Shown here: in pieces, positions 4,604 to 25,309 of the stretch
How the letters are laid out: every line of letters starts with the position of its first letter
Position numbering within the stretch: position 1 is the stretch's first letter
Origin: Cupriavidus alkaliphilus
Lineage (GTDB): Bacteria > Pseudomonadota > Gammaproteobacteria > Burkholderiales > Burkholderiaceae
NCBI RefSeq assembly: GCF_900094595.1
Contig: NZ_FMAD01000004.1
Coordinates: forward strand, 124,001-188,000
Direction of reading: 5' to 3'
DNA: 64,000 nt
Position numbers and translations under genes: made by a program
Notes under the pieces: generated by a model
What the model was told of the DNA's origin: nothing
The model's input: the letters and a program-made list of their open reading frames with translations, nothing else
Databases searched by the model: none

Positions 4604-4638
4604 TCCTGAGCTTGCACAACCCTCGCTTGCGACGGTGT

Positions 4639-4668
4639 GCTCCCTCTCCCGCTTGCGGGAGAGGGAGC
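4639..4668. repeat. REP-like palindrome (copy 2) between xsc and pta
   Basis: Perfect 14+14 inverted repeat, GCTCCCTCTCCCGC with its complement around TT. Same family as copies at 406, 30761, 51927, 59950 and 60049. Confidence 0.85.
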
Positions 4669-4684
4669 CAACCACCAGCATCAC

Positions 4685-4704
4685 AAGGGCTACGGCCCTT
4701 TTTT
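4685..4704 (+). terminator. Intrinsic terminator after xsc
   Basis: Stem AAGGGC / GCCCTT with TACG loop, followed directly by a T run. It lies only 22 bases before the pta start, so pta expression should depend on read-through or another signal. Confidence 0.7.
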
Positions 4705-4726
4705 CAGTTTTACCGAGCCAACCACC

Positions 4727-7462: not shown

Positions 7463-8486
7463 GGTACTGTTCTCTTATCTGTCGCGCGGCCTCGACATTA
7501 CGCGATTCTCCGGTCTCGAGCAGGTCGGCATACACGAGCACCGGGTGCCCAACGGTGGGCGCCACTTCCGTCGCCAGCGCAAGCCCCGCTGGCCAGAAGC
7601 GCTGCACGATCTCCACCTCGCCGCCAGGGTCTGCCTTCAGCCTCGCGTCGAGGATGAGTTCGCGAGGTGTCGCCGAACCCGCGTACAGCGTGATGCGCTC
7701 GGCCCGCAGATTATGCGCGAGCTTCTCTGCTGCCGCCTCGCTTCCAAGGACGGCGTCGTATCGTTGAAGGTCGATGCCCTGCCACCAATCGGGCCGCGTT
7801 GCGCTAAATCGCTTGCTCGCGAGTTTCGGCCGGAGCCGCAACGGATAAAGCGTCGCCCATTCGTCGACGACACGCGCCCAGTCAATGAAGCGACGCTTGC
7901 CGTCATCGCCGGCCCCTACCAGGCTGCGTTTGAGCAGGTCGTCCAGTGCAAGATTGACGGTGCTCAGCGCAACGCCGGCCGCGTTGGCGATGGACCGGTA
8001 CGGAGCGTTCAGCAACCCAGGGTTCGCGATCAGTGCAAACAGGACTGCCAGCTGCTTGGGGCTGGCAGTCCGTGCGCGTCGCTGCGGCACGCCGCCAGCC
8101 GGCGCGCGGCGGCCCACCACGTACAGCAATGCACTGGGCAAGCGCAGGGAAACGTTGCCCGCGGTATCGATGAAGGGGATGTCATGGCTGCGCAGGCGCT
8201 CGGCCATGTCGGGGGACACGTATGACGTGACAAGCAGCACCTTCTGCCCAAGCCGATGCTGCAATTCCACGATCGGGGTCACGGCGGCGAAACGATCCAC
8301 CACGCGCCGCACCATGACCGGCAAAGTGCAGCTGCCGCCTGCGCCCAAATCGAAACGCATCGAGCCGTCCTGCTGGTCGACGCGCATCGATGCCGGCACG
8401 GCCTCCGCGTGCAGCGCAGTCGCGGTACGGAAAGCGCTGGCGGCAGCATGAAGCAGGATTTCGTTGTCTGCAGGCGTCGTATACAT
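7446..8486 (-). CDS. AbiEi-type antitoxin / transcriptional regulator
   Basis: A 346-residue partner of the downstream AbiEii-like toxin. A winged-helix segment lies around residues 142-191 (SPKQLAVLFALIANPGLLNAPYR... followed by STVNLALDDLLKRSLV), and the central part LLVTSYVSPDMAERLRSHDIPFIDTAGNVSLRLP resembles the restriction-like domain seen in this family. Start: GTG at 8489 directly precedes ATG at 8486; I use the ATG, and neither has a strong ribosome site. A 17-base palindrome lies about 30 bases upstream and is a natural autorepression operator. AbiEi proteins are known to repress their own promoters. Confidence 0.7.
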   Translation of the reverse strand: MYTTPADNEILLHAAASAFRTATALHAEAVPASMRVDQQDGSMRFDLGAGGSCTLPVMVRRVVDRFAAVTPIVELQHRLGQKVLLVTSYVSPDMAERLRSHDIPFIDTAGNVSLRLPSALLYVVGRRAPAGGVPQRRARTASPKQLAVLFALIANPGLLNAPYRSIANAAGVALSTVNLALDDLLKRSLVGAGDDGKRRFIDWARVVDEWATLYPLRLRPKLASKRFSATRPDWWQGIDLQRYDAVLGSEAAAEKLAHNLRAERITLYAGSATPRELILDARLKADPGGEVEIVQRFWPAGLALATEVAPTVGHPVLVYADLLETGESRNVEAARQIREQYLAYPP

Positions 8487-8515
8487 CACATGAAAGACGT
8501 TTGATTTTTAGCGTA

Positions 8516-8762: not shown

Positions 8763-10067
8763 TCAGGCCACCGTCCCCGCCGGCCGCGCCAGCGGCGCGG
8801 CGTCTTCCTTGCCGCCGCTGCCGCCCGCCTGCTCCAGGTCCATGCCAGTGGTTTCGGGCAGCAGCGCCGCGGCCACCACCACCATCGCATAGCCGATCCC
8901 CGCGACGATCGCGATCGCGGTCGGCAGCGAGGTGTGCCCCGAACTGAGCCATCCCACCGACAGCGGGAACAGCGAGCCGATCACGCGGCCCGCGTTGTAC
9001 GAGACGCCATACCCGGTCGCGCGGATATCGTTGGGATAGGACTCGGCAATGGTTGCGCCGATGCCGGCAAACACGCCCTGCATCAGCACACCCAGCGGGA
9101 AGCCGAGGAACAGCATGGAGGTATTGGACACCGGGATCACCATGTAGACCAGCGCGGCGATGAACGCGCCCGCGGCGAATACGATGTAGGTCAGCCGCCG
9201 GCCCCAGCGGTCGGTGGCATAGGCGCCCGCCACGTAGCCGGCCAGCGAGCCGATGATGGTGACGGTCAGGTAGGAACTGGTGCCGAACACCGACAGCCCG
9301 CGCTCGGTCTTGAGGAAGGTTGGCAGCCACGTGGCGATGGCGTAGTACGCCCCCAGCATGCCGCCGGACAGCAGGCTGCACAGCAGCGTCTTGGCCAGCA
9401 GAGGCCCGCGGAACAGCCGGCCCAGCCCCGCCAGCGCCGAACCCTGGTTGCCGGCGGCGCGGCTCTTCAGGAAGATCTCGGGCTCTTCGAGGTTGCGGCG
9501 CAGGTAGATCACGACCAGCGCCGGCAGGATGCCGAGGAAGAAGCAGACGCGCCATGCCGTCTCCGCCGGCAGCACGCTGAACGTGATCGCATACACGATC
9601 GCCGCCGCACCCCAGCCGAAGGAATAGCTGCTCGCGGTAAAGCCCGAGTATTTGCCGCGGTGCGCCGGGTTGCGAATCATCTCGGTCACCAGCACCATGC
9701 ACAGCGACGACTCACCGCCGAACCCCAACCCCTGGATCATGCGGAATACCATCAGCTGCTCCGGCGACTGCGCCAGCCCGCACAGGAAGCAGGCGCCCGC
9801 GAACACGATGATGGTCCAGCGCAGCACGCGCACGCGGCCGTAGCGATCGGCCAGGATGCCGGCGCCGATAGCCCCGACCAGCGACGACACCAGCGTCCAG
9901 GTGACGATCGCCCCGGCCGTCGATTTGCTCATGCCCCACTGCCCCAGCAGCGTGGAGATGAGGAAGGAATAGATCATGAAGTCGAACACGTCGACCGCAT
10001 GCCCCAGGAACGCGCCATAGAATCCCTTGCGCTCCATGCGCGACAAATCACGGAACCAATCGAACAT
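8763..10067 (-). CDS. Major facilitator superfamily transporter (aromatic/organic acid:H+ symporter-like)
   Basis: A 434-residue MFS protein with twelve expected membrane segments. The loop 2-3 motif appears as GAGILADRYGRVRVLRW and its repeat in loop 8-9 as GAYATDRWGRRL; the N-terminal stretch GFYGAFLGHAVDVFDFMIYSFLI and the GLGFGGESSLCMVLVTEM segment are typical of the sialate/aromatic acid symporter families. The start at 10067 has a strong ribosome site (AGGGGAGGGG). It follows the amidase gene by 44 bases in the same direction, so it is probably transcribed with it from the GntR-type promoter at 11.69 kb. It likely imports the substrate handled by the amidase or the oxygenase cluster; substrate unknown. 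Confidence 0.85.
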   Translation of the reverse strand: MFDWFRDLSRMERKGFYGAFLGHAVDVFDFMIYSFLISTLLGQWGMSKSTAGAIVTWTLVSSLVGAIGAGILADRYGRVRVLRWTIIVFAGACFLCGLAQSPEQLMVFRMIQGLGFGGESSLCMVLVTEMIRNPAHRGKYSGFTASSYSFGWGAAAIVYAITFSVLPAETAWRVCFFLGILPALVVIYLRRNLEEPEIFLKSRAAGNQGSALAGLGRLFRGPLLAKTLLCSLLSGGMLGAYYAIATWLPTFLKTERGLSVFGTSSYLTVTIIGSLAGYVAGAYATDRWGRRLTYIVFAAGAFIAALVYMVIPVSNTSMLFLGFPLGVLMQGVFAGIGATIAESYPNDIRATGYGVSYNAGRVIGSLFPLSVGWLSSGHTSLPTAIAIVAGIGYAMVVVAAALLPETTGMDLEQAGGSGGKEDAAPLARPAGTVA

Positions 10068-10111: not shown

Positions 10112-11602
10112 TCAGTTGTGGTCCGCCGCTGACTGCGGCGGCACTGGCGGCCGGTACGCATAGCCTGCTTCCTCCAGCAGGCAGGCAAAGCGCAAGGCGG
10201 TGAGATCCTGGTAGCGGCCGGCGACGATCTGCACCCCGACCGGCAGCCCGCCGGCACCGGGCCCGATCGGCGCCACGGCGGAGGGCAATCCGCAAAGCCC
10301 GGAGTGGCCGGCCCAGAACAACTGCGTGGTCATCCGCTGCGGGCGGCCGTTGACGGTGAGCGTGCGTTGCCACGGCTCGCCGGCCTCGTCGAGCGCAAAC
10401 GCCGTGGTGGCGGCGGCCGGGCACAGCAGCACGTCATAGCGGGTGAAGAAGCTGCGCCATGCGGCGGCAAAGCGTTCGCGCGCCACCTGCAGGCGCAGCC
10501 AGTCGCGGTGGCGCAGCGTCGCGCCGGTGTACTGCAGGGTCGCGTAGTCATGATCGCCGGCGGTGGCGGTGGCACTGCGGGCCAGCGCATCGGCGAAGGC
10601 CGCGTCGTCCATGTGCACCGAGGTGGTGGCGCGCAGCAGCGTCACGTAGGCATGCCACAACTCGCCGGGGTCGAAGTCTGGCCGTTCATGCCAGCCGACA
10701 TGGGCACCTTGCTCCGCCAGCCAGTGGCCCAGCTGCTCGATCTGCGCGGCGACCTCGCGGTCCGCTTCGGCCTGGGCATGGGTGGGCAGCACGGCGATGC
10801 GGAAATCGGCGAGCCGGCGGTGCGGGCATTCCGGCCACTGCAGGCGGTATGGCAGCGCGTCGTCACCGTCCGGGCCCGCGATCACGCGCAATACCGGTTC
10901 CAGGTCGCGCGCGCTGCGCGCCAGCGGGCCGGCGACATTGATGTCCTGCTCGCCGAAGCGCGCGTCACCGGTGCCGTGGCCGGCCAGCGGCACCAGCCCG
11001 TGGCTCGGCTTGAGCGAAAAAATGCCGCAGTAGTGCGCCGGATTGCGCAGCGAGGAACCGATGTCGGAACCCACGTCGAAGAACGACAGGCCGGCGCAGA
11101 CCGCCGCGGCGCTGCCGCCCGACGAGCCGCCCGGCGTGCGGGTCGGATCGTGCGGGTTGCGGGTGGTGCCGTAGATCGCGTTATAGCTCTGCCAGTCGCG
11201 CAGGCCGAGCGGGACGTTGGTCTTGCCGAGCAAGATCGCGCCGGCGTCGCGCAGCCGCTGCACTACCACCGCGTCGCGCCCGGGCACCTGATTGCGCAGG
11301 GCCGGATTGCCGCAGGTGGTGGGCCAGCCCGCGACGTCGAACGACTCCTTGACCGAGAACGGCACGCCGTCGAGCATGCCGCGCGCGTGCCCGGCACGGC
11401 GGCGCTGGTCGCTGTCGCGCGCGGCCGCGCGGGCCGCATCGAAATCCGATAGCACCAGCGCATTGATGGTGCCGTGCCATTGCCGCTGCGCCGCCTCGCA
11501 GGCATCCACCAGATGCTCCGACGACACCGTGCCAGCGGCAAGCCGCTGTGCCACCTCCCATAGCGGCGGAAAGCCGCCAGTCGTCCAGTCCGGCAAGTTC
11601 AC
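10112..11602 (-). CDS. Amidase signature family hydrolase
   Basis: A 496-residue amidase of the Ser-cisSer-Lys class, hydrolysing a carboxamide. The catalytic lysine is K85 in GVPFSVKESFDV, the cis-serine lies in TPGGSSGGSAAAV (about 160-161) and the nucleophile is S184 in GSDIGSSLRNPAHYCG. GTG at 11602 is chosen because AAGGAG lies 8 bases before it; the frame is open to 11650 but no better start is seen. First gene after a promoter carrying the GTATAC operator, followed by an MFS transporter. Context suggests it feeds an amine- or acid-containing product into the oxygenase pathway; its true substrate is not readable. Confidence 0.9.
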   Translation of the reverse strand: MNLPDWTTGGFPPLWEVAQRLAAGTVSSEHLVDACEAAQRQWHGTINALVLSDFDAARAAARDSDQRRRAGHARGMLDGVPFSVKESFDVAGWPTTCGNPALRNQVPGRDAVVVQRLRDAGAILLGKTNVPLGLRDWQSYNAIYGTTRNPHDPTRTPGGSSGGSAAAVCAGLSFFDVGSDIGSSLRNPAHYCGIFSLKPSHGLVPLAGHGTGDARFGEQDINVAGPLARSARDLEPVLRVIAGPDGDDALPYRLQWPECPHRRLADFRIAVLPTHAQAEADREVAAQIEQLGHWLAEQGAHVGWHERPDFDPGELWHAYVTLLRATTSVHMDDAAFADALARSATATAGDHDYATLQYTGATLRHRDWLRLQVARERFAAAWRSFFTRYDVLLCPAAATTAFALDEAGEPWQRTLTVNGRPQRMTTQLFWAGHSGLCGLPSAVAPIGPGAGGLPVGVQIVAGRYQDLTALRFACLLEEAGYAYRPPVPPQSAADHN

Positions 11603-11682
11603 ATCGGCTCCTTGTCGTGATCCGCGCTCGCGCGGCGCGGTGGGGGGCATGTCAGGGGCTCAGGCGTGCTTCGTCTTCGTTG

Positions 11683-11714
11683 GTATACTATATTCCGTAT
11701 CGCGCGCAGTGCAA
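11683..11714 (-). promoter_or_regulatory. Promoter with GntR-type operator (amidase-MFS operon)
   Basis: Read on the minus strand: -35 TTGCAC (11714-11709), 16-base spacer, -10 TATAGT (11692-11687) overlapping GTATAC (11683-11688). The 15 bases GGAATATAGTATACC are identical to the promoter at 18892-18906 on the other strand. Confidence 0.7.
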
Positions 11715-11822
11715 GGACAATGCGCGAGCGGACACCGCGCGGGCGGCGTGCGAAGGTTTTGGGATGACCGGAACAAATGGCCCGCAGGACGCGTGCCAGG
11801 GAGGAAGGCGGGAACAGCCAGG

Positions 11823-11848
11823 GCGCGCGGCGGGGCTCCGCCGCGCGT
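11823..11848 (-). terminator. GC-rich hairpin downstream of the small ORF
   Basis: Inverted repeat with 10 paired bases, CGCGCGGCGG / CCGCCGCGCG around GGCT. No T run, so a factor-independent terminator is only possible. Confidence 0.4.
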
Positions 11849-11861
11849 CATTCAGCAAGGG

Positions 11862-12050
11862 TCAGCAATGGCCGCGGCGAGGCGCACGGCCGCCCAGCGC
11901 AAGGAAAAAGCGGCCGATATCGCGCAGCCGCAGCGGCACCAGCGGGGTGGCATGGCGCACCGCATCGCGCGCGGCAAAGTGGCCGAGCAACTGCTGGCCG
12001 ACGGGTTGCGAAAGGTAGCGTTGTTCGGACGACTGCATGGCAAATCTCAT
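11862..12050 (-). CDS. Small hypothetical ORF, 62 residues
   Basis: Not recognised. The product begins MRFAMQSSEQRYLSQPVG and has codon use like its neighbours (mostly G/C third positions). AAGG lies 5 bases before the ATG. It is preceded at 12.07 kb by a GTATAC site with a TATACT -10-like box and is followed by a strong hairpin, so it has the outline of a small independent gene in the GntR regulon. It could equally be the remnant of a longer gene, since the sequence ends abruptly with a basic tail (GRAPRRGHC). No membrane segment or known motif. Confidence 0.35.
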   Translation of the reverse strand: MRFAMQSSEQRYLSQPVGQQLLGHFAARDAVRHATPLVPLRLRDIGRFFLALGGRAPRRGHC

Positions 12051-12065
12051 GACCTTGAATGACTA

Positions 12066-12077
12066 CAGTATACACTT
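12066..12077 (-). promoter_or_regulatory. GTATAC operator/-10 element upstream of the small ORF
   Basis: GTATAC at 12068-12073. On the minus strand it reads AAGTGTATACTGTAG, giving TATACT as a -10-like hexamer 17 bases before the ATG of the 62-residue ORF. The -35 region is weak. Confidence 0.5.
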
Positions 12078-12204
12078 AATTGGTGCAGTGCGTCATATCG
12101 GGGCACGTCATGCCCTGCTCAAGGGCATCCATGCATGCAGGTCCGGGATACGGCCGGGCTGCCGGGGCAACGACGGAGCGGCCGAGAGAAGGCAGCCGGC
12201 GCGC

Positions 12205-12915
12205 TCAGGCCGCCTGCGCCGCGCTGCCCTGCCCTTCCACCGGCAGGTCAGCAGCCTTGGCGGCACTGTAGACGTGGCGCGCGGCCAGCAGTGCCGCGAG
12301 GTCGGCGTCGCCGGCGATCACCGCCTGCAGGATCTGCGCGTGCTCGTCCCAGTTCTGGCGCGCGCGCACCACGTTGGCCGGGCCGAACAGCACTGCGGTG
12401 CGCTCGCGCAGCGAACGCATCATTTCCTGCAGCACGCTGTTGGCCGCGATGGTGCCGAGCACCTCGTGGAAGCGCGTATTGAGCGCCAGCAGCTCATCCG
12501 CGCGGCCCTGGGCCGCGGCCTCCATGCCCTGCCGCAACACGGTTTCCAGCTCCGCCACCAGCGCCGGGTCGCGCCGCTGCGCGGCGAGCTTGGCGTTAAG
12601 CCCCTCCAGCGTGGCGCGTACTTCGACCATCTCGCGCGCAATCACCGGCGACAGGCTGGCCACGGTCGCGCCGCGGCGCGGCTCGATCACCACCAGCCCT
12701 TCGCTGGCGAGCGCGCGCAGCGCCTCGCGCACCGGGATGCGCGATACGCCCAGCTCCGCCGAAAGCTTGTTCTCCACCAGCCGTTCGCCCGGGGCGTATT
12801 TGCCGTTCAGGATGCCTTCGCGCAGCTTGTCGGTGACAAGGGCGAACAACGGCGAGTGGCTGGCACCGAGGCTCAGCGGCTCGGCGTGCGCGGCAGGAGG
12901 CGGAGTGAGGGACAT
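12205..12915 (-). CDS. GntR-family transcriptional regulator, FadR/FCD subfamily
   Basis: A 236-residue regulator with an N-terminal winged helix (about 22-85: LREGILNGKYAPGERL, then ELGVSRIPVREALRALASEGLV) and a C-terminal all-helical FCD ligand domain (about 90-220). Candidate metal/ligand residues of the FCD pocket are present: N146, H150 in NTRFHEVLG, H192 in WDEHAQIL and H214 in ARHVYSA. A GTATAC site lies just upstream of its own start and five more lie upstream of neighbouring transcription units, so it is the obvious local regulator, probably a repressor released by a pathway acid. FCD regulators typically bind TGTATACA-like palindromes, which fits. Confidence 0.9.
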   Translation of the reverse strand: MSLTPPPAAHAEPLSLGASHSPLFALVTDKLREGILNGKYAPGERLVENKLSAELGVSRIPVREALRALASEGLVVIEPRRGATVASLSPVIAREMVEVRATLEGLNAKLAAQRRDPALVAELETVLRQGMEAAAQGRADELLALNTRFHEVLGTIAANSVLQEMMRSLRERTAVLFGPANVVRARQNWDEHAQILQAVIAGDADLAALLAARHVYSAAKAADLPVEGQGSAAQAA

Positions 12916-12951
12916 GGGTCGGCAGAGGCGTAAGCGGAGAGGCTGGCGTCA

Positions 12952-12961
12952 TTGTATACCA
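12952..12961 (-). promoter_or_regulatory. GTATAC operator upstream of the GntR gene
   Basis: TTGTATACCA with GTATAC at 12954-12959, 39 bases before the regulator start; likely autoregulation. Confidence 0.55.
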
Positions 12962-12985
12962 GCCGTTTATGCCTACCGCCATGTC

Positions 12986-13987
12986 TTAACAAGGGTGCTG
13001 GAACGTAAAGCTGTCGGCGTACAGGTGGCCGGGACTGGCCCCATGCGCGAGAAAGGCGGCACGCGCGTCACGGATCATGTCGGGCGAGCCGCACAGGTAG
13101 ATCGCGTATTCGCTCAGGTCGCCCAGGTCGGCCAGCGCCGCGTCGTGCACATAGCCGCGCCGGCCCTGCCAGTCCGCGCCGGCGCGCGACAGCACCGGCG
13201 CGTAACGGAACTCGTAGAGCCGCTCGCCCCAGGCCGCGATCTCGCGGTCCAGGTACAGGTCCTGCGCCTGCCGCATGCCCCAGTACAACGACACCGGCGG
13301 ACAGTCGGGATCGTCCATCAGCGATTCCAGGATAGCCTTGATCGGTGCCAGCCCGGTGCCGGTGGCCACCATCAGCAGCGGCCGGTAGTCGCTCGCGCGG
13401 TAGAAGAAGGCGCCCAGCGGCAACTCCACCTCGATCGCATCGCCGGCGCGCATGCGCGGCAGGATGCCATCGGTAAAGGCGCCGCCGGGAATGCGCCGCA
13501 CGTGCAGGTCGATGCGCCCGTCGCGCGGCAGCGAAGCCATCGAGAAGCTGCGCGCGAGTCCTTCGCCGCTCAACAGCTTCAGATACTGGCCAGGTCGGTA
13601 GTCCAGCGCACCCGCGCCAGGCACCTCGAGCGCGACGTGCATGACGTCGGCCGACAGCTGGCGCACCGCCCGCACCACCGCGCGATGGCGTGCCGGTTCG
13701 GCGCAGGCTTCGTCGTCGCGCGCCGTGCTGATGACCAGGTCGGCCTGCGGCTGCGCCTGGCATGCCAGCGCGAAGCCGGCAGCGGCCTCGTCGGGGGCCA
13801 GGCCGAACGGTTCCTCGTCGTAGCGCACCTGTCCGTCGAGCAGGCGGATGCGGCAGGTGCCGCAGCCGCCCAGCTGGCAGTCGTGGCGCAAGGCAACGCC
13901 GGCGCGCTGCGCGGCCTGCAGCAGCGTCTCGCCGCGCTCGACAAAGAAGACCTGCTCCGTTTCGGCGACCTGGATGCGGTACGACAT
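12986..13987 (-). CDS. Oxygenase reductase: [2Fe-2S] ferredoxin fused to FAD/NAD(P) reductase
   Basis: A 333-residue electron-transfer protein. The N-terminal plant-type ferredoxin domain has cluster cysteines C37, C42, C45 (DCQLGGCGTC) and C76 (LACQ). An FAD-binding barrel follows (RSFSMAS motif, preceded by YRPGQYLKL), then an NAD(P)-binding domain (VATGTGLAPIKAI and the terminal CGSPDMIRDA). This matches reductases that feed NADH electrons to ring-hydroxylating or diiron oxygenases. Last gene of the HDO-ALDH-GlcG-reductase operon, 22 bases after the GlcG-like gene. The most likely partners are the HDO candidate at 15989-16720 and the two ferredoxins at 20.6-21.6 kb; no conventional oxygenase alpha subunit is encoded nearby. 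Confidence 0.88.
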   Translation of the reverse strand: MSYRIQVAETEQVFFVERGETLLQAAQRAGVALRHDCQLGGCGTCRIRLLDGQVRYDEEPFGLAPDEAAAGFALACQAQPQADLVISTARDDEACAEPARHRAVVRAVRQLSADVMHVALEVPGAGALDYRPGQYLKLLSGEGLARSFSMASLPRDGRIDLHVRRIPGGAFTDGILPRMRAGDAIEVELPLGAFFYRASDYRPLLMVATGTGLAPIKAILESLMDDPDCPPVSLYWGMRQAQDLYLDREIAAWGERLYEFRYAPVLSRAGADWQGRRGYVHDAALADLGDLSEYAIYLCGSPDMIRDARAAFLAHGASPGHLYADSFTFQHPC

Positions 13988-14009
13988 GGAACCTCCCCGG
14001 CAAGCGTGC

Positions 14010-14489
14010 TTATTTCTTGATGTCGGCCTGCACCAGCACGCGCAGGTCCTGCGCTGCCAGCAGTTCGGCCAGCGCCTGCAGCGCGGCCAGGCCGGCCTGC
14101 GTGTCCTGCTCGCCGTTGCCGCCGGACAGGCCGATGCCGCCGATCACTTCGTCGTTAACCACGATCGGGAAGCCGCCGACAAAGGCGGCGAACTTGCCCT
14201 CGAAGCTCCACTGGATACCGAAGGCCTCGTTGCCGGGCAGCGCCGGCCCGTTCGGCGGCGTGGTGAACAGGTGCGTCGAGCGCTTGTGGCCGGCGGCGGT
14301 GAACGCCTTGTTCCACGCGATCTGCGGACCGGTGATGCGGGCGCCGTCCATGCGCTCGAGCGCGAGCGGATAGCCGCCCTCGTCGACCACGCAGATCGAC
14401 TCCAGCACGCCGATCTCTTCCGAGCGCCGGATCGCGGCGGCAACCATATGGCGCGCTTCGCGCAGTTCCAGCTTGATGGCTTTCTTCAT
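14010..14489 (-). CDS. GlcG/HbpS family protein
   Basis: A 159-residue single-domain protein of the GlcG/HbpS (former DUF336) family. Typical features are the N-terminal helix with AVAAAIRRSEEIG-like sequence, the strand CVVDEGGYPLALERMDGA and the glycine-rich C-terminal part FPIVVNDEVIGGIGLSGGNGEQD. Members bind heme or small ligands, or are accessory proteins in catabolic operons; a biochemical role is often unknown. No signal peptide. Lies between the aldehyde dehydrogenase and reductase genes in one operon (28- and 22-base gaps), so it probably acts in the same pathway. Confidence 0.85.
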   Translation of the reverse strand: MKKAIKLELREARHMVAAAIRRSEEIGVLESICVVDEGGYPLALERMDGARITGPQIAWNKAFTAAGHKRSTHLFTTPPNGPALPGNEAFGIQWSFEGKFAAFVGGFPIVVNDEVIGGIGLSGGNGEQDTQAGLAALQALAELLAAQDLRVLVQADIKK

Positions 14490-14517
14490 GACGATGACTC
14501 CTTGCTGCGGGACGGGC

Positions 14518-15963
14518 TCATGCGCCCCGGTAGACGGTCTTGACCTGCGTATAGAACTCCAGCCCGGTGCGGCCCGATTCGCGGAAGGTCGACGTGCTCG
14601 ACCGCTTCAGCCCGCCGAACGGCGCGTTGACCAGGTTGCCGGTAGTGGTGCGGTTGATCTTGACCGTGCCCGCCTCGATGTCGTTGGCGAAGTGGTGGAT
14701 GTAGCGCGGGTTGCTGGTGACGATGGCGGCAGCCAGGCCGTATTCGGTATCGTTGGCCTTGGCGATGGCGTCGGCATAGTCAGTGAACCCGAGGATGGCG
14801 ATCACCGGGCCGAAGATCTCCTCGCGCGCGATCCGCATCCGCGGGGTCACGTCGGCAAACACGGTCGGCGCGACGTAGTAGCCCTTGTCGTAGTCGCCGC
14901 CGCTCAGCCGCGCGCCGCCGCACAACAACGTCGCCTCGGCCTTGCCGATGTCTATGTAGCGCAGCACCGTTTCCAGCTGCTTGTGCGAGGCCAGCGGCCC
15001 GAGATCCATCCCCGGCGTCATGCCGCTGCCGAGCTTGAGCGTGGCGACTTTCGCCAGCAGGCGTTCGGTGTACGCCGCCTTCACGGCTTCGGCCACCAGC
15101 ACGCGGCTGGTGCCGGTGCACGCCTGCCCCGACAGCGAGAAGCCGCCCTTGATGGTCAGGTCGACCGCGCGGTCGAGGTCGGCATCCTCCATCACGATCA
15201 GCGGGTTCTTGCCGCCCAGTTCCATCTGTGTGCGCGTGGTCAGCGGCACCGCCCGGTGGATCTGCTCGCCCGCGCGCGACGAGCCGGTGAACGAGATCGC
15301 GCGCACCGCAGGCGCCTCGGTGATGGCGGCGCCGATCTCGCCGGCGCTGCCGGTGATGAAGTTGAGCACGCCCTTGGGCAGCCCGGCCTGGACCAGCGCC
15401 TCGGCCAGGCGATAGCCCGACAGCGGCGCCTCGGACGACGGCTTGAACACCACCGTGTTGCCGGTAATCAGCGCCGGCGCGATCTTGCGCGCGGGAATCG
15501 ACACCGGGAAGTTCCACGGCGCGATCACCGTCACCACCCCGAGCGGCTCGCGCTGGCTGTAGACCAGTTGGTCGGGATCGTCGTTGGGATACACCTCGCC
15601 GGTGAAGGTCTGCCCTTCCACGGCATAGAAGCGCAGCGTCTGGGCCGAGCGCAGCACCTCGTCGCGCGCCAGCGCCAGCGCCTTGCCTTCCTCGCGCGTC
15701 AGTTCGGCCGCGATGCTGTCGGCATTGGCTTCGAGGTGGTCCGCGGCGCGGTTGAGCATGGCCGCGCGCTTGCCGACCGGCGTCTTCTTCCAGCCGGCAA
15801 AGGCCGCTGCCGCGGCCGCCACGGCCGCCTGCGCGTCCACCGCGGACGACGCCTGGAAGCGGCCCACGATGTCGGCGGTGTCGGCCGGGTTGACGTTGTC
15901 GAAGGTCCGGCCCGACTGGCAGGCCGTCCATTCGCCGTCGATATGGTTGAGGAACACAGTCAT
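14518..15963 (-). CDS. NAD(P)-dependent aldehyde dehydrogenase
   Basis: A 481-residue ALDH oxidising an aldehyde to a carboxylic acid. Key residues are visible: N151 in APWNFPVS, K174 in VVFKPSSEAP, catalytic E248 in MELGGKNPL and nucleophile C282 in GQACTGTS. Overall it resembles semialdehyde dehydrogenases of the alpha-ketoglutaric semialdehyde or vanillin type, but the substrate cannot be fixed. It follows the HDO candidate by 25 bases and precedes a GlcG-like gene, so it probably oxidises an aldehyde released by the oxygenase step. Confidence 0.92.
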   Translation of the reverse strand: MTVFLNHIDGEWTACQSGRTFDNVNPADTADIVGRFQASSAVDAQAAVAAAAAAFAGWKKTPVGKRAAMLNRAADHLEANADSIAAELTREEGKALALARDEVLRSAQTLRFYAVEGQTFTGEVYPNDDPDQLVYSQREPLGVVTVIAPWNFPVSIPARKIAPALITGNTVVFKPSSEAPLSGYRLAEALVQAGLPKGVLNFITGSAGEIGAAITEAPAVRAISFTGSSRAGEQIHRAVPLTTRTQMELGGKNPLIVMEDADLDRAVDLTIKGGFSLSGQACTGTSRVLVAEAVKAAYTERLLAKVATLKLGSGMTPGMDLGPLASHKQLETVLRYIDIGKAEATLLCGGARLSGGDYDKGYYVAPTVFADVTPRMRIAREEIFGPVIAILGFTDYADAIAKANDTEYGLAAAIVTSNPRYIHHFANDIEAGTVKINRTTTGNLVNAPFGGLKRSSTSTFRESGRTGLEFYTQVKTVYRGA

Positions 15964-15988
15964 CGTCGATCCCGTTGCGTGGCGCCGC

Positions 15989-16720
15989 TCAGGCCGCCAT
16001 GTCCAGTTCGGGCAGCGGCAGCTCCTGCTCGACGTAGTCGTGATAGAGCGCGGTCGTGTACAGCAGGCGCATCTGCGCGCCGATCTCGCAGATCTTCAGG
16101 CAGCGCTGCTGCAGTTCCGGCGTATTGGCGTGCTCCAGCACGATCTGGTAGCCGCGCTCGCCGTGGATCTCATCCGAGACGATATGCAGGTCGAAGAACT
16201 CGACCTCTTCGTCGGTGAACTGGTACTTGTCGCGCAGCGTCGGCGTCTGCTTGCGGTAGATCGACGGCACCTGCGATTCCAGCCCCACCACCAGGCCGGC
16301 CACGGCCACGATCGGGTCCTCGCGCATCGCCACCGCGTAGCACCAGCTCTGCAGGCCGCGCGTGGTAGGCGACATATTGTCCGGGTCGATCACGCGTTCG
16401 CGCGTGGTGCCGCAGGCTTCGGCAAAGCGGATCAGCAGGTCGGTGTGGCGGTCGCCGCCGATCTCTTCCTCGTACATATTGGCCAGCAGGAAGTCCTTGG
16501 CTTCGGTATAGCGGTCCGGCGTGCGCGCATAGATGTAGCCAAGGTAATCCGCGAACGGCCCGACGTAGTGGTAGTGGTTCTCGGCCCAGCGCGCGAGATG
16601 GGCGCGGGTCAGCTTGCCGCTGGCCCAGGCCACGCTGAACGGCGCCTGGTTGGCGCTCTTGCCTTTGATCGCTTGTTCGAGGGCGGCACGGAATGCTTCG
16701 CGGTTCATCAGTTCGGCCAT
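15989..16720 (-). CDS. Heme-oxygenase-like diiron oxygenase (HDO) candidate, TenA/PqqC superfamily
   Basis: A 243-residue all-helical protein of the iron-containing redox enzyme/TenA-like superfamily. A full set of diiron ligands can be placed: E85 and H92 (EEEIGGDRH), E148 (GLVVGLESQ) and H179, D183, H186 (LHIVSDEIHG). The E-x6-H ... E ... H-x3-D-x2-H pattern and the gaps between motifs are close to those of Chlamydia CADD and other HDO enzymes, which use O2 for N-oxygenation, decarboxylation or C-C cleavage. Nothing suggests thiamin or PQQ biosynthesis in the neighbourhood. First gene of an operon with an aldehyde dehydrogenase, a GlcG-like protein and a ferredoxin reductase, behind a GntR-type promoter. 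I infer it is the terminal oxygenase of the cluster; substrate unknown. Confidence 0.75.
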   Translation of the reverse strand: MAELMNREAFRAALEQAIKGKSANQAPFSVAWASGKLTRAHLARWAENHYHYVGPFADYLGYIYARTPDRYTEAKDFLLANMYEEEIGGDRHTDLLIRFAEACGTTRERVIDPDNMSPTTRGLQSWCYAVAMREDPIVAVAGLVVGLESQVPSIYRKQTPTLRDKYQFTDEEVEFFDLHIVSDEIHGERGYQIVLEHANTPELQQRCLKICEIGAQMRLLYTTALYHDYVEQELPLPELDMAA

Positions 16721-16803
16721 GACGGGCTCCTGGTTGTCGGTGTGGGGCGATGCGAGTGGGTGGGATGCCGGAAAAGCCTGCTTCGATGCCGTCCCGGCAT
16801 GGT

Positions 16804-16836
16804 TGTATACTATATACAGTTGATCAACGCCGACAA
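16804..16836 (-). promoter_or_regulatory. Promoter with GntR-type operator (HDO operon)
   Basis: Minus strand: -35 TTGTCG (16836-16831), 16-base spacer, -10 TATAGT (16814-16809). The -10 lies inside a perfect inverted repeat TGTATA-CTA-TATACA (16804-16818), the most symmetrical form of the GTATAC site here. Confidence 0.7.
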
Positions 16837-16892
16837 GGGCTCTGTTGACTCGTCACGTCAGTGTTTACCCGAGAGCGTCGGCGCCGCGAGCG

Positions 16893-17825
16893 TCAGTCGG
16901 CGCGGCGAACCGCCCCGCCCGCGATGCGCGACCATGCGTATCCCGCCAGTGCGACGTCTTCCAGTCCCACGCCGACCGACTTGTAGATCACGATGTCGTC
17001 ATCGCGCTGCCGCGGCGACACCTTGCTGAGCACCACGTCGGCCAGTTCGACGATTTTTTCCGGCGGCAGCGCGCCGGGACCGGCCAGCACGATATCGCCG
17101 GCCTCGCGGGTCGATTGCGGCCGCCACTCCACCACCACGGCGGCGGCGCGGCGCAGCGCGGTGTCGTCGAGCTCGCGCGTGTGGGGCAGGCTCGAGCCGA
17201 TCGCGGCGACGAACGCGCCTGGCCGGATCGCCGCACCGGAGAACAGCGGCGTGGTGGCGCGCGAGGCCGTGACGATGATGTCGGCCTCGGCCACCGCGGC
17301 ATCGGGCTCGGCCAGCGCAACGGGAATGCCGCACTGCGCCGACAGCCGTTCCGGCATGCCGGCGTCGGCATGCGGATCGGACACCAGGATGCGCGCGAGT
17401 CCGAGTGCGGCGCTGAGCTGGCGCGCGTGCTGCGCGCCCTGCGTGCCGGCACCGAACAAGGCCAGCGTGCGTGCGCCGGCGCAGGCCAGCCGTTGCGCCG
17501 CCAGCGTGGTGCAGGCCGCGGTGCGCAGCCGCGTGATGGCGCCGGCGTCGAGCGAAGCGAGCGGGCGACCGTCTGCGGACGAGAAGATCAGGATGACGAA
17601 GGAAAACTGGCCGTTGATGGTGGTGTAGACCTTGGCGCCGGCCACGCCCTGCTGCGGGATCACCGCGCCCAGCGTCGACAGCTTGACGCCGCCCGCCTCG
17701 GTGCGGATCCGCGCCTGCATCGCGGCATCGCCGCGCCCGAAGCTGGAAAACGCGGACGCCATGACCTCGAGGGCAGCTTCCGGGGTGACATGGGCGTCGA
17801 TCATGGCGTCTGTGATGTGCTGCAT
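16893..17825 (-). CDS. Ornithine cyclodeaminase / mu-crystallin family protein
   Basis: A 310-residue NAD(P)-dependent enzyme of the OCD/mu-crystallin/alanine dehydrogenase-like family. The Rossmann nucleotide motif is LALFGAGTQGAQHARQL, and the family motifs GGVKLSTLGAVIPQQG (substrate-binding Arg/Lys region), GAITRLRTAACTTLAAQRLA and ASRATTPLF are present. Members either deaminate ornithine to proline or reduce cyclic imines and ketimines; this sequence does not decide between them. Start at 17825 with GCGGAG upstream rather than the longer frame to 17891. Follows the TSUP permease gene by 58 bases in the same direction. A ketimine or imino acid intermediate in the pathway is a reasonable inference. 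Confidence 0.85.
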   Translation of the reverse strand: MQHITDAMIDAHVTPEAALEVMASAFSSFGRGDAAMQARIRTEAGGVKLSTLGAVIPQQGVAGAKVYTTINGQFSFVILIFSSADGRPLASLDAGAITRLRTAACTTLAAQRLACAGARTLALFGAGTQGAQHARQLSAALGLARILVSDPHADAGMPERLSAQCGIPVALAEPDAAVAEADIIVTASRATTPLFSGAAIRPGAFVAAIGSSLPHTRELDDTALRRAAAVVVEWRPQSTREAGDIVLAGPGALPPEKIVELADVVLSKVSPRQRDDDIVIYKSVGVGLEDVALAGYAWSRIAGGAVRRAD

Positions 17826-17883
17826 GGAAACTCCGCTGGTGGGTTGGTTGGGAAAGCCAGGAAATCCGCGTGGGCACGCCGCC

Positions 17884-18651
17884 TCAGGCAAACGCCGCGC
17901 GGCCGAGCACGCCCAGCGCGCCGGCCGCGCACAGGCCCAGCAGCAAGCGGCGCACGGTGTGGGCGGAAACGCGCCCGCGCAGCCGGTTCGACAGCGCGAA
18001 ACCGGCCAGCAGGAACGGCGCGAGCGCCAGCGCCAGTAAAAGCTGCGGCGTGCCGAAGCGCCCGGCCAGCGTCAGCATGGCCAGCGACAGCACGGCGCCG
18101 CCCGACAGGATGCAGCCCATGGTCGCGCGCATCGGCGCGGGCGGCATGTGCTGCATGACGAGCGCGAACGGCGGCGCGCCGGCCGAGGTAATGGTCCCCA
18201 TGAAGCCGGACAGCGTGCCGGCGATCACCACGTTGCGGGCACCCGGCAGCAGCCGCCAGCCGAGCAGGCTCAGCGCCACCGCGGCCAGGATCGACAGCGA
18301 GAACAGCACCGCCAGCGGCCCCGGCGCCAGCCAGGCCATGGTCAGCACCGCGGCCGCGCCGCCGACTGCCCGCCCCACCAGGGCAAAGCCCGCCACCGGC
18401 CAGACGATGGCTTCGCGCTCGCGCAGCGCCCCCATCAGCGACAGGCAGCACCCCATCGCCAGCAGCGGCCCAGGCACCAGTTCCGGAAAAAAGATCGCGC
18501 CCAGCGGCGCGCACAGCATCGCAAAGCCGATCCCGCCTACCCCCTGCAGGCAGGCGCCGGCCAGGATGAGCGCGCCCATCCACAGGTAGTCCGGAGCAGA
18601 AAGACCTGGAGGCAGCAACGTCAGCAAGGCGGCGGGCATGGCGTCGGTCAT
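17884..18651 (-). CDS. TSUP (TauE/SafE) family permease
   Basis: A 255-residue membrane protein with about eight hydrophobic segments. The half-repeat motifs GACLQGVGGIGFAMLCAPLG near residue 32 and GTLSGFMGTITSAGAPPFAL near 145 mark the TauE/SafE/YfcA family, which exports sulfite, sulfonates or small organic anions. It differs clearly from the sulfite exporter at 5758-6528. First gene of a two-gene unit with the ornithine cyclodeaminase homologue, behind a perfect CTGTATACAG palindrome, so it belongs to the GntR cluster and not to the xsc pathway. Substrate unknown. Confidence 0.85.
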   Translation of the reverse strand: MTDAMPAALLTLLPPGLSAPDYLWMGALILAGACLQGVGGIGFAMLCAPLGAIFFPELVPGPLLAMGCCLSLMGALREREAIVWPVAGFALVGRAVGGAAAVLTMAWLAPGPLAVLFSLSILAAVALSLLGWRLLPGARNVVIAGTLSGFMGTITSAGAPPFALVMQHMPPAPMRATMGCILSGGAVLSLAMLTLAGRFGTPQLLLALALAPFLLAGFALSNRLRGRVSAHTVRRLLLGLCAAGALGVLGRAAFA

Positions 18652-18715
18652 GGGCAGGGGAACAACATGGCGGCGGGGCGGCGGGAGTGCATCACCGGTT
18701 TTCAGTGGACCTAAT

Positions 18716-18725
18716 CTGTATACAG
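18716..18725 (-). promoter_or_regulatory. GTATAC palindrome upstream of the TSUP-OCD unit
   Basis: CTGTATACAG, a perfect 10-base palindrome 65 bases before the TSUP start and shared with the divergent permease promoter region. Confidence 0.6.
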
Positions 18726-18873
18726 TCTACTTATTGACATGACCGTAGGCAACTTCCGGGGCAACCGATGCACCATCGAAAAGCCCTCGACGACCGGTTA
18801 ATCCCCGTAAATGTGCGGCCTACAGCCACATTGCACCGAACCGGAGTCCGCGTAAGTCCGGACGAAAAATCGC

Positions 18874-18905
18874 TTGGCGCGGAACTACGCTGGAATATAG
18901 TATAC
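18874..18905 (+). promoter_or_regulatory. Promoter with GntR-type operator (permease-ferredoxin operon)
   Basis: -35 TTGGCG (18874-18879), 16-base spacer, -10 TATAGT (18896-18901) overlapping GTATAC (18900-18905). The run GGAATATAGTATACC is identical to the amidase promoter on the opposite strand. Confidence 0.7.
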
Positions 18906-18967: not shown

Positions 18968-20506
18968 ATGTCACAACACGTCGTGATCGGTGCCGCGCAC
19001 TGGATCTATCTGTCAGGGGTAGCAGTCATCGTGCTGACGATGATCCTGCGCGCCAATGTCGTCGTCCCGTCGATCGTCGGCACCGCGCTGGTCGTGTTTG
19101 CGCTGACCGGCAGCCCGGTGTCGGCGCTGGCCGGGGTGTTTTCGGCCAGCCTGGTCGCCGCGCGGGAGCTGTTCAACATCTTCCTGGTGATCGCCTTCAT
19201 GACGGCGCTGCTCAATGCGCTCAAGACGCTGCGCTCCGACATCCGCATGGTCGAGCCCTTCCGCGTGGTGATGAAGAACGGGCATTCCGCGTTCTTTATC
19301 CTGGCCGGCATCACCTACCTGATCTCGCTGTTCTTCTGGCCAACGCCGGCGGTGCCGCTGGTGTCGGCCATCCTGCTGCCGGCCGCGATCGCTGCCGGGC
19401 TGCCGCCGCTGGCGGGCGCGATGGCGATTGCCATCGCCGGGCAGGGCATGGCGCTGTCGTCGGACTATGTGATCGGCGTCGCGCCAGGCATCAGCGCCAA
19501 GGCCGCCGGCGCGGCGGTCAGCGCGGCGGTGGTGGCCGACCGCGCGCTGGCGTTGTCGCTGATCACCGGCGGCATTGCGCTGTGCCTGGCCTACCTGTCG
19601 ATGCGCAAGCACATCGTGCCGGCCTGCGGCACCCTGCTCGATCGCTGGCAGGCGCGCGCCGGCGGCAGCGCCGAAGCCATCGATGGCGGCATCACCTTCG
19701 ACAAGGCCGAGATCGCGAAGGGCACCGCCCACGCCGAACCGCTCGCCACCGACAGCAATATCGAAGCCAGCCTGTCGATGGTCGCGCGGCGGCGGGTGAA
19801 GTGGTCCAAGTGCTTTGCCATCGTGACGCCGCTGGCCTTTCTTGCGGTGGTCGCCGTGATGGTGCTGCCCAAGCTCGGCGCCGGGGTGCAGGACCTGAAG
19901 GGCGGCGAGGCCGCCGCGCTGGTGGGCGGGGTCGCCGCGGTGCTGATGATGCTGGCGACGCTGGCCGCGGAAGGCCCGCGCCGCATGCTGGATGTCTGCC
20001 CCGAGCACATCACCGACGGCTTTGTCTTTGCCTTCAAGGCCATGGGGTCGGTGCTGCCGATCGCGGGCTTCTTCTTCGTCGGCGCCGGCGAGACCGCGGC
20101 GCACATCCTTGGCCTGCCGCCGGGCAAGGCGCCCAGCCTGCTGTTCGAGCTGATCCAGGCCTACCAGCACCTGATCCCCGACAACCACATGCTGGTCGCC
20201 TTCGGCGTGCTGCTGGTCGGCATGATCACCGGCATCGACGGCTCCGGCTTCGCCGGCCTGCCGCTGACCGGCACGCTGGCCGGCGCACTGGGCCCGGTGG
20301 TCGGCTTCGACCCCGCAACGCTGGCGGCGGTCGGCCAGATGGGCGCGGTCTGGACCGGCGGCGGCACGCTGGTGGCGTGGTCGTCTCTGATCGCGGTGGC
20401 CGGCTTTGCCCGCGTGCCGGTGCTCGAAGCGGTGCGCGCGCTGCTGATCCCGGTGCTGATCGGGCTGGCCTGCTCCACCGTGGCGGCGATGGTGCTGTGG
20501 TCGTAG
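18968..20506 (+). CDS. Polytopic permease, ion-transporter superfamily-like
   Basis: A 512-residue membrane protein with ten or more hydrophobic segments and a hydrophilic central loop of about 60 residues (around 225-285, rich in charged residues). The halves have glycine/proline-rich re-entrant-like segments, LPPLAGAMAIAIAGQGMALSSD in the first and MITGIDGSGFAGLPLTGTLAG in the second, as in dicarboxylate/citrate and Na+/H+ type transporters. I do not recognise the exact family. First gene of an operon with two ferredoxins, driven by a GntR-type promoter, so it probably imports the acid or amide substrate of the oxygenase pathway. Start ATG follows a weak AGGGAG site. Confidence 0.7.
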   Translation: MSQHVVIGAAHWIYLSGVAVIVLTMILRANVVVPSIVGTALVVFALTGSPVSALAGVFSASLVAARELFNIFLVIAFMTALLNALKTLRSDIRMVEPFRVVMKNGHSAFFILAGITYLISLFFWPTPAVPLVSAILLPAAIAAGLPPLAGAMAIAIAGQGMALSSDYVIGVAPGISAKAAGAAVSAAVVADRALALSLITGGIALCLAYLSMRKHIVPACGTLLDRWQARAGGSAEAIDGGITFDKAEIAKGTAHAEPLATDSNIEASLSMVARRRVKWSKCFAIVTPLAFLAVVAVMVLPKLGAGVQDLKGGEAAALVGGVAAVLMMLATLAAEGPRRMLDVCPEHITDGFVFAFKAMGSVLPIAGFFFVGAGETAAHILGLPPGKAPSLLFELIQAYQHLIPDNHMLVAFGVLLVGMITGIDGSGFAGLPLTGTLAGALGPVVGFDPATLAAVGQMGAVWTGGGTLVAWSSLIAVAGFARVPVLEAVRALLIPVLIGLACSTVAAMVLWS

Positions 20507-20567: not shown

Positions 20568-20903
20568 ATGCCAAAAGTCATCCTGCACAAGTCCGGCCAG
20601 ACCTTTACCGGCGAGGTCGGCCCCAGCACCAACCTGGTGGTCCGCGCCGGCATCCGGCAGTTCCCCTACCCCAACCTGCGCTACGAATGCGGCATGGGCA
20701 AATGCTCGAAGTGCGCGTGCCGCGTGATCGCCGGCGCGGAGCACCTGCCGCCGCCCAACTGGAAGGAAAAGAAGCAGCTTGGCGAACGGCTCGAACAAGG
20801 CTACCGGCTGGCCTGCCAGCTGTGGATCGAGCATGACGTCGAACTGGCCCAGGACGATGTGCCGGCCGCGGCCGCGCTGGCCGGGGCAAGCGCGGGGGCC
20901 TGA
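20568..20903 (+). CDS. [2Fe-2S] ferredoxin (first copy)
   Basis: A 111-residue plant-type ferredoxin with cluster cysteines C41, C46, C49 (ECGMGKCSKC) and C83 (LACQLW). It has an extra cysteine at 51 and an acidic, alanine-rich tail. ATG at 20568 is chosen over an upstream TTG. It lies 61 bases after the permease and is separated by a single base from the next gene. Likely electron carrier between the reductase at 12.99 kb and the HDO candidate; the second ferredoxin in the operon is only distantly similar, suggesting different partners. Confidence 0.85.
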   Translation: MPKVILHKSGQTFTGEVGPSTNLVVRAGIRQFPYPNLRYECGMGKCSKCACRVIAGAEHLPPPNWKEKKQLGERLEQGYRLACQLWIEHDVELAQDDVPAAAALAGASAGA

Positions 20904-20904
20904 C

Positions 20905-21222
20905 ATGTTCGTGCTGCTGACCAGCCGCCCCGGCCAGTTCCGTACCGAGCCCACCGACGGCCTGACCGCCGTCGAGGCCTACGACTACCTCTTCTACGGC
21001 AAGGCCACCGCCCGCTTCGTCATTGCCGAGCTGGCCGCGGAGACCAGGGTCCGCATCCGGGAGGAAACGCCGCCCGGCATCGTCAACCTGGTCTCGACGC
21101 GTTTCCTCGACAAGTACGCCACGCTCGAAGCCGCCCGCGACGCGCTGCACCAGCTGGCCAGCTTCGGCAGCATGGACATCGCCCTGGTGCCCGCGCCGGT
21201 CACCGTGGACGGCCGCTCCTGA
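20905..21222 (+). CDS. Small conserved-looking protein between two ferredoxins
   Basis: Not recognised. A 105-residue soluble protein without cysteines, starting MFVLLTSRPGQFRTEP and containing YDYLFYGKATARFVIAEL, then ETPPGIVNLVSTRFLDKY. The mix of strands and helices suggests a small alpha/beta domain. It starts one base after the stop of ferredoxin 1 and ends 34 bases before ferredoxin 2, so all three are almost certainly translated together. The position suggests a small oxygenase subunit, effector or assembly factor for an iron-sulfur protein, but nothing in the sequence proves a function. Confidence 0.75.
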   Translation: MFVLLTSRPGQFRTEPTDGLTAVEAYDYLFYGKATARFVIAELAAETRVRIREETPPGIVNLVSTRFLDKYATLEAARDALHQLASFGSMDIALVPAPVTVDGRS

Positions 21223-21256
21223 AGCCTCACGCCTGCAACGCCAGGCATCTATCGCC

Positions 21257-21586
21257 ATGATCCAGATCACCTTCCTCACCAACCACGGCAAGACCGTCAC
21301 TGCACCGGTCAACAGCAACCTGCTGCGCGTGTCGCTGCGCGAACAGGGTGGCATCCCGTTCAAATGCGGCGGCGGCCTGTGCGGCACCTGCAAATGCCGC
21401 ATCGAGCAAGGCCGCGAGCATACCGATGCGGTCAAGCCGAAGGAACGGAAGCTGCTGACGGAAGCGGAACTGGCCGATGGCTTCCGGCTGGCATGCCAGA
21501 CTTTCATGGCCGGCGATGTCGCGGTCTCGTGGCAGCCGAAGGCGACGGCCGGGCGGCCGCAGCCGGCCGCCGCCAGCGGCGACTAG
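21257..21586 (+). CDS. [2Fe-2S] ferredoxin (second copy)
   Basis: A 109-residue plant-type ferredoxin with cluster cysteines C37, C42, C45 (KCGGGLCGTC) and C80 (LACQTF). It is closer to the ferredoxin domain of the reductase (CQLGGCGTC) than to ferredoxin 1. Last gene of the permease operon; it converges on the CobT-like gene, whose stop lies 13 bases away. Probable electron donor in the same oxygenase system. Confidence 0.85.
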   Translation: MIQITFLTNHGKTVTAPVNSNLLRVSLREQGGIPFKCGGGLCGTCKCRIEQGREHTDAVKPKERKLLTEAELADGFRLACQTFMAGDVAVSWQPKATAGRPQPAAASGD

Positions 21587-24307: not shown

Positions 24308-24403
24308 CTTGTGCTCCTCGTTGCCTCGCTGCCTCATTGCTTCGGCCATGCCATGCCATCGGCACGGCGGCAAGCGGAGCGGTTCCGCGTAACGCCGTGC
24401 CTG

Positions 24404-25252: not shown

Positions 25253-25309
25253 GCCTGGCTCCATCATAGGTAAGTTTCATTTTCAGAGTCAAATCATATC
25301 AATTATCGA

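Follow-up and report, generated by a model that had tools for sequence, protein, structure and literature searches.

FCD-type GntR regulators of the VanR group are recognised by an effector domain of six, not seven, helices (PMC7797058), and for one of them, Atu1419 of Agrobacterium fabrum, the same source describes a DNA-bound structure, binding to ATGTATACAT overlapping -10 boxes, and reading of a G by Arg45. Here we examine a regulator of this kind in a 64-kb stretch of Cupriavidus alkaliphilus DNA (the window; contig NZ_FMAD01000004.1, from a genome of 6,125,055 bases in 34 contigs), where six sites containing GTATAC surround its gene. Comparison across Cupriavidus and other genera indicates that these six sites are very probably the operators of one conserved, probably catabolic regulon under the FCD/VanR-group GntR protein (Table 1).

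All six hexamers lie exactly where the sequence-only reading had placed them, each ahead of a transcription unit, and its descriptions of the units hold, its 'small ORF' being a conserved coding gene. With co-transcription inferred from strand and spacing, five units run leftwards: amidase-MFS, a small protein of 58 residues, gntR, HDO-aldehyde dehydrogenase-HbpS/GlcG-like protein-ferredoxin reductase (HDO being a heme-oxygenase-like iron enzyme), and TSUP-OCD (OCD being an ornithine cyclodeaminase-family protein). The sixth, permease-ferredoxin-small protein-ferredoxin, runs rightwards. As that reading also stated, the amidase, HDO and permease sites overlap a -10 box TATAGT with a 16-base spacer to the -35 box (TTGCAC, TTGTCG and TTGGCG, respectively), and two sites share GGAATATAGTATACC on opposite strands, at 18892 (+) and 11682 (-), the sequence occurring once per strand. 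The window holds seven GTATAC, the seventh at 8479, at the 5' end of an AbiEi-like ORF, against 1.41 expected, and seven was reached in none of 100 shuffles. At the genome rate, 0.11 would be expected per 7.2 kb, which gives a Poisson probability for six or more of 2.3e-9, a figure that is indicative only, since other local GTATAC clusters exist in the genome and the null is too simple.

Conservation was followed in 61 gntR-centred Cupriavidus loci, namely the window and 60 fetched stretches (all listed close gntR matches except that of G045, solo gntR without the cluster included), a site being counted as present within 300 bp upstream of a gene. It stands ahead of the amidase gene (amd) in 29/30 copies, the small-protein gene in 55/55, gntR in 56/62, HDO in 49/52, TSUP in 27/27 and the permease gene (perm) in 49/50. 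Control genes are almost devoid of it: MFS 0/31, fdr 0/53, glcG 0/52, aldh 0/51, fd1 1/49, fdX and fd2 0/49 each, vwa 0/20, moxR 0/12 and iclR 0/5. The OCD count is only 21/48 because TSUP stands between OCD and the site in many species. A close gntR orthologue is present in 57 of 60 genus genomes, with distant matches only in G001, G014 and G024.

Beyond Cupriavidus, a family sample of 299 genomes from 25 genera contains HDO (E<=1e-60) in 61 genomes belonging to five genera. A first set of 20 loci from other genera (L091-L110) has the site ahead of amd in 14/14 copies, HDO in 19/21, OCD in 9/12, fd1 in 16/20, perm in 3/5 and gntR in 1/17; the remaining genes have none (MFS 0/14, fdr, glcG and aldh 0/18 each, fdX 0/12, fd2 0/20). 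A scan for HDO relatives in one genome per species (84,980 species) yielded 463 stretches, the best 80 of which were made into loci. Setting aside 22 of these (L168-L188, all Cupriavidus, and L190, a C. basilensis record repeating L090) left 58 non-Cupriavidus loci, from Achromobacter, Pandoraea, Paraburkholderia, Bordetella, Candidimonas, Bradyrhizobium, Azospirillum and others, which share at least six records with the first set. Here the site precedes HDO in 58/58, amd in 16/16, TSUP in 27/28, perm in 39/47, OCD in 8/14, aldh in 24/56 and fd1 in 19/56, and is absent ahead of fdr (0/45), glcG (0/57), fdX (0/55), fd2 (0/56) and MFS (0/16). GntR itself, counted at >=45% identity, is encoded in 55 of the 58.

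The hexamer proves to be one half of a longer site. Alignments reveal a second, degenerate hexamer to one side of GTATAC, and over 217 sites in the 58 loci this second hexamer matches GTATAC at a mean of 4.29 of 6 positions at a 1-base gap, as against 1.59-2.47 at the 15 other gaps between 0 and 15, with five or six matches in 50% of sites at gap 1 and in <=1% at every other gap. Since the match peaks at a 1-base gap, we take the operator to be the 13-base element GTATAC-N-GTATAC, its centres 7 bases apart, usually with one half perfect and the other degenerate. Operators of other genera frequently have two perfect hexamers (GTATACCGTATAC and similar). In the window they read GAATAT-a-GTATAC (amidase, permease), GTATAT-a-GTATAC (HDO), GTAGAC-t-GTATAC (TSUP-OCD) and GTATAC-t-GTAGTC (small protein), and the gntR site has a single clear hexamer. 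The classical motif TTGTATACAA was rejected as the signal: its one exact place in the genome is outside the cluster, and it fits two cluster sites with one mismatch. Two Cupriavidus clusters, L086 and L090, have two HDO copies; in L090 both of the sites, and in L086 one of the pair, carry a flank on either side (GTAGATTGTATACTATCTAC).

This structure bears on whether the sites are simply shared sigma-70 -10 boxes (TATAGT/TATACT) without operator function. The TATAGT overlap at three sites would fit such an explanation, as would the conserved TTG of the -35 box at spacer 16, kept in 59/63 GAATATAGTATAC and 32/33 GTATATAGTATAC sites of the Cupriavidus loci and found at any other spacer from 10 to 24 never more than six times. 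Conservation nevertheless extends past the -10 box through the whole of GTATAC and the second hexamer at its fixed 1-base gap, the OCD site and many foreign sites have no TATAGT, and outside the cluster the 6.1-Mb genome contains not one exact match to the 13-base pattern, so that promoters alone are a very improbable source of the pattern.

The specificity of the signal likewise lies in the full element. Bare GTATAC occurs 94 times in the genome, including clusters of eight (C8:243719-244475) and four (C10:181031-181084) in different contexts, which rules it out as a genome-wide signature. Five of six own-genome stretches viewed outside the cluster contain GTATAC, and by eye just one of these sites is a tandem with a clear second half (GTAAACCGTATAC, L161). 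Exact matches to the pattern GWAKAYNGTATAC number four in the genome and all fall in the cluster, a count that is partly circular because the pattern was drawn from these sites; the small-protein site fits it with one mismatch and the gntR site not even then. Across the genus, 56 of 60 genomes contain it exactly. The exceptions are G001, G014, G024 and G058, and among 40 genus genomes sampled these same four lack HDO.

Support comes from two further directions. First, GAATATAGTATAC occurs outside the cluster 19 times among the matches listed, and in 19/19 cases lies directly ahead of an amidase-MFS operon, the genes behind these sites not being known when the pattern located them. One case, in G023, sits beside the small gene where a contig ends, and there assembly has probably split the usual arrangement, leaving 18 in which gntR was not seen in the fetched flank. 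In five genomes of <=8 contigs (G002, G006, G015, G016, G029) a different contig carries the amidase operon, or >=200 kb separate it from the exact cluster sites; the remaining 13 cases come from draft assemblies. The regulon, which had been called compact, is so only in close relatives, because amidase-MFS lies elsewhere in many species. Among the matches listed there are five further outlying pattern matches, two in G036 and three in G040 (one adjoining cluster sites), and the match at G016:C3:665395 has no cluster gene within the fetched 10 kb. Second, under a matrix built from 44 distinct sites (74 in total) of the other-genera loci L091-L110, the six sites outscore every other distinct place in the window, at 26.6, 24.4, 22.6, 22.5, 15.4 and 9.7, the next place reaching 9.06; four of the six exceed 16.8, the best of 20 shuffles. 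A chance or compositional origin, in which a few AT-rich palindromes stand out in a GC-rich genome, can point to the other kinds of local GTATAC clusters, but is contradicted by the conservation across genera, the outlying amidase sites, the matrix ranking and the genus-wide site counts, and its probability is close to nil.

The outlying amidase operators have surroundings of their own. In L139-L147 and L149-L157 they are preceded, at a distance of about 140-225 bases, by another GTATAC, often CAAACGGTATAC, and 6/19 operons (L144, L146, L147, L149, L152, L157) have upstream TGGCAY-N5-CTGC, a sequence like a sigma-54 -24/-12 promoter. TGCACCA/GGTGCA elements in the same six stretches resemble NtrC half-sites. 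The small-protein promoter also carries a conserved TTGGTGCA, and these elements together suggest nitrogen control.

The regulon proposed from the letters alone is thus upheld by unit-start conservation, near-absence at controls, the outlying amidase operons, the other-genera matrix and co-occurrence with gntR. Sequence comparison establishes the candidate operators and shows that they are conserved, that they accompany the amidase operon to whatever place it occupies and that they co-occur with gntR. Several observations weigh against this reading. The support is comparative, and co-absence cannot single out the regulator, because the site-less genomes also have no target genes. The matrix required a GTATAC core, the small-protein (15.4) and gntR (9.73) sites fall below the shuffle best of 16.8, and the gntR site barely exceeds the next background place at 9.06. 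Three Cupriavidus HDO copies have no exact site; one of these is a one-base change, and the other two closely follow OCD with no site between. GTATAC is also found inside HDO (15 loci) and OCD (6 loci), where we read it as coding sequence and not as operators. The gntR site is absent from the L085, L086, L088, L089 and L090 clusters and from one of two L061 copies, and in the 58 loci precedes only 5/55 gntR copies. Given 1/17 and 5/55 in other genera, autoregulation by the GntR protein is at best a feature of Cupriavidus, where 56/62 copies have the site; with one clear hexamer in the window, it is the weakest part of the regulon and is best called putative.

Around gntR itself, solo copies L065 and L070, from the same genomes as L086 and L090, keep the site that the clustered gntR lacks, and L061 carries a tandem gntR pair (89% and 68% identity) at one cluster. 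In at least L038, L042, L044, L045 and L049-L052, the stretch between fdr and gntR has another GTATAC close to where fdr ends, separated by 18-19 bases from that of gntR.

The regulator scores 71.9 and 88.7 bits against the Pfam GntR winged helix-turn-helix and FCD models (cut-offs 27 and 24.3), and its predicted model (mean pLDDT 83.5) has effector helices at residues 90-114, 117-136, 139-157, 160-177, 182-201 and 204-221, which on the modelled fold makes it a VanR-group FCD GntR protein. Fold matches of the model include PmiR, McbR and Atu1419. In 16 sequences the recognition-helix residues S58, R59, P61, R63, E64 and A65 are invariant, as are N146, H150, H192 and H214, the residues of a predicted metal site. 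R59 aligns with the Atu1419 recognition helix and is predicted to contact a G; a further point against the GntR protein is that the DNA-contacting Thr46 of Atu1419 is Ile, Val or Asn in these proteins. Could the operators be real and read by a different regulator, encoded close by or elsewhere, for instance the product of the IclR-type gene (24404-25267) or a paralogue of the FCD GntR type? Binding by the GntR protein is itself drawn from sequence, the genome contains 29 matches to it at E<=0.001, and gntR has no site of its own in most other genera. Against this, gntR at >=45% identity accompanies the operators in 55/58 non-Cupriavidus loci, the recognition helix is invariant alongside conserved operators, and VanR-group Atu1419 reads the same core (PMC7797058), while IclR at >=85% identity is confined to close relatives among the fetched loci, with weaker matches elsewhere. 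We therefore regard a different reader as improbable, and favour the GntR protein.

How might the GntR protein act? Without inducer, one or more of its dimers would most likely occupy the tandem operator across the -10 region and block RNA polymerase, consistent with the overlap of operator and -10 box at the amidase, HDO and permease promoters; each full operator may hold two dimers. Repression rather than activation is inferred from operator position and VanR-group precedents. The effector domain, with its metal-site residues, would then bind an HDO-pathway substrate or intermediate, and the repressor would leave the DNA. The result would be joint induction of the genes for uptake, the oxidase, the electron carriers, the aldehyde dehydrogenase and the amidase. 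The Mimosa root-exudate transcriptome was considered as a clue to the inducer and set aside: of five terms, only GntR appears in the available part of the paper, once and in general wording (PMC5789663).

The 58-residue protein, which begins MQSSEQRYL, evolves as a coding sequence. Its median in-frame pN/pS is 0.22 in a closer set (253 pairs, counting those with pS >0.05), where shifted frames give 1.17 and 1.99, and 0.54 across 1481 usable pairs of all 55 loci. No Pfam or NCBIfam family matches it. In the family sample it is present in 37/299 genomes, all Cupriavidus; G058 has it together with a solo gntR and without HDO, and G001, G014 and G024 are without it. A core, P[VI]GQQLLxHYAxRDAVRHATPL, also lies next to HDO in 25/25 Achromobacter loci, and Bordetella has a variant of it; a motif search of 33 other loci of the best 80 and of the 20 loci L091-L110 did not find it. 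The gene thus adjoins gntR in Cupriavidus and HDO in Achromobacter. One tentative possibility, which we consider less likely than not, is that the cluster encodes an undescribed HDO catabolic pathway under a VanR-group repressor, with a tandem operator for two cooperative dimers and the 58-residue protein as a dedicated part, in which case the latter would be, for example, an anti-repressor or an oxidase assembly factor.

The HDO product is, by sequence, a relative of the heme-oxygenase-like diiron oxidases with predicted diiron/oxygen activity. Among solved structures it is closest to CADD-type 4-aminobenzoate synthases (2.3e-17), and it falls below the CADD model TIGR04305 (94.8 bits versus a cut-off of 200). 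In all of the best 80 loci, from Cupriavidus to Bradyrhizobium, it is >=87% identical to that of the window. DtpC of Acinetobacter was rejected as a described relative, being a general HDO-family protein in a source whose available text leaves Cupriavidus unmentioned (PMC13232832). The permease is kept across genera, and the fold predicted for it (mean pLDDT 69) bears a weak likeness to TRAP and DASS carriers. From family names only, the gene set suggests oxidative catabolism of a nitrogen-containing compound. The operators delimit an uncharacterised, very conserved pathway, and genes with an operator are its candidate members; in this way candidate membership extends to amidase-MFS where it lies on other contigs and to a small gene of no known family. 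Coupled to a reporter, one such promoter would allow a search for the inducer and, through it, for the substrate.

Table 1. Operators and genes of the cluster, in positions of the window
Feature	Coordinates	Strand	Basis or detail
MFS transporter, second gene of amidase unit	8763..10067	-	library match; start inferred
Amidase	10112..11650	-	NCBIfam PRK06170 above cut-off; coordinates are ORF limits
Operator GAATATAGTATAC, amidase-MFS unit	11683..11695	-	-10 TATAGT 11687-11692, -35 TTGCAC 11709-11714
Conserved 58-residue protein	11862..12038	-	55 loci
Operator GTATACTGTAGTC, small-protein gene	12061..12073	-	GTATAC overlaps TATACT, a -10-like box
GntR-family regulator, FCD domain, six-helix effector domain	12205..12915	-	Pfam and predicted model
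Putative gntR autoregulatory site CGTCATTGTATAC	12947..12959	+	one clear hexamer only, 12954-12959
2Fe-2S ferredoxin reductase, last gene of HDO operon	12986..13987	-	BenC-like architecture
HbpS/GlcG-like protein	14010..14489	-	family-library match
Aldehyde dehydrogenase	14518..15963	-	family-library matches
HDO, heme-oxygenase-like iron enzyme	15989..16720	-	Pfam Haem_oxygenas_2
Operator GTATATAGTATAC, HDO operon	16805..16817	-	-10 TATAGT 16809-16814, -35 TTGTCG 16831-16836
Ornithine cyclodeaminase-family protein (OCD)	16893..17825	-	start inferred
TSUP/TauE-family permease, first gene of TSUP-OCD unit	17884..18651	-	
Operator GTAGACTGTATAC, TSUP-OCD unit	18718..18730	-	matrix rank, conservation
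Operator GAATATAGTATAC, permease-ferredoxin unit	18893..18905	+	-10 TATAGT 18896-18901, -35 TTGGCG 18874-18879
512-residue permease	18968..20506	+	no Pfam match
Fer2 ferredoxin, small protein without Pfam match, second Fer2 ferredoxin	20568..21586	+	

Flanking the cluster are an AbiEi-type regulator gene (7446-8489, minus strand; Pfam AbiEi_2), perhaps half of a type IV toxin-antitoxin pair, and xsc (sulfoacetaldehyde acetyltransferase) followed by phosphate acetyltransferase (2747-5761, plus strand), so that part of a sulfonate pathway adjoins the cluster. On the other side (21600-24373, minus strand), a CobS-like AAA ATPase gene (532.8 bits, slightly under the cut-off of 558.55) adjoins a long ORF with a VWA-like end, and among the fetched loci matches are seen only in closer relatives.

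Compared with described systems, the regulator is most like Atu1419 in its six-helix FCD fold, SRxPVREA recognition helix, three-His metal site and catabolic targets, and its sites share a TGTATACA-like core over -10 boxes (PMC7797058). The two differ in operator architecture: Atu1419 reads a single 10-bp palindrome and its tetramer can loop DNA (PMC7797058), whereas here two hexamers are conserved at a 7-bp pitch and operator pairs show no helical phasing. Looping via helically phased pairs was accordingly set aside, with a vector length R <=0.18 at periods of 10.0-11.5 over 52 distinct region-spacing pairs; spacing in divergent regions is 175 in the window and 104 to 190 in most others. Closely repeated GTATA-containing hexamers ahead of several operons are also a feature of Escherichia coli NanR, another FCD-GntR protein, whose (GGTATA) repeats are bound by two or three dimers via an N-terminal extension (PMC8012715). 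When the present sites are held against a repeat of the NanR type, the hexamer recurs at a 1-base gap, is degenerate in many sites, is not clearly repeated at gntR, and differs from GGTATA. The regulator does not reach the NanR model NF003011 (62.2 bits versus a cut-off of 260), and NanR ranks under VanR-group structures in a fold search with the predicted model. PmiR (7xp0) and McbR/YncC (4p9f), at 31% and 25% identity, are among the best matches in a comparison made here by fold. Among the open-licence PMC papers listed by the searches, none was recognised as a description of this regulon. The regulator and the kind of regulon are already known; within that literature, the regulon itself, the small protein and the tandem form of a VanR-group operator look new.

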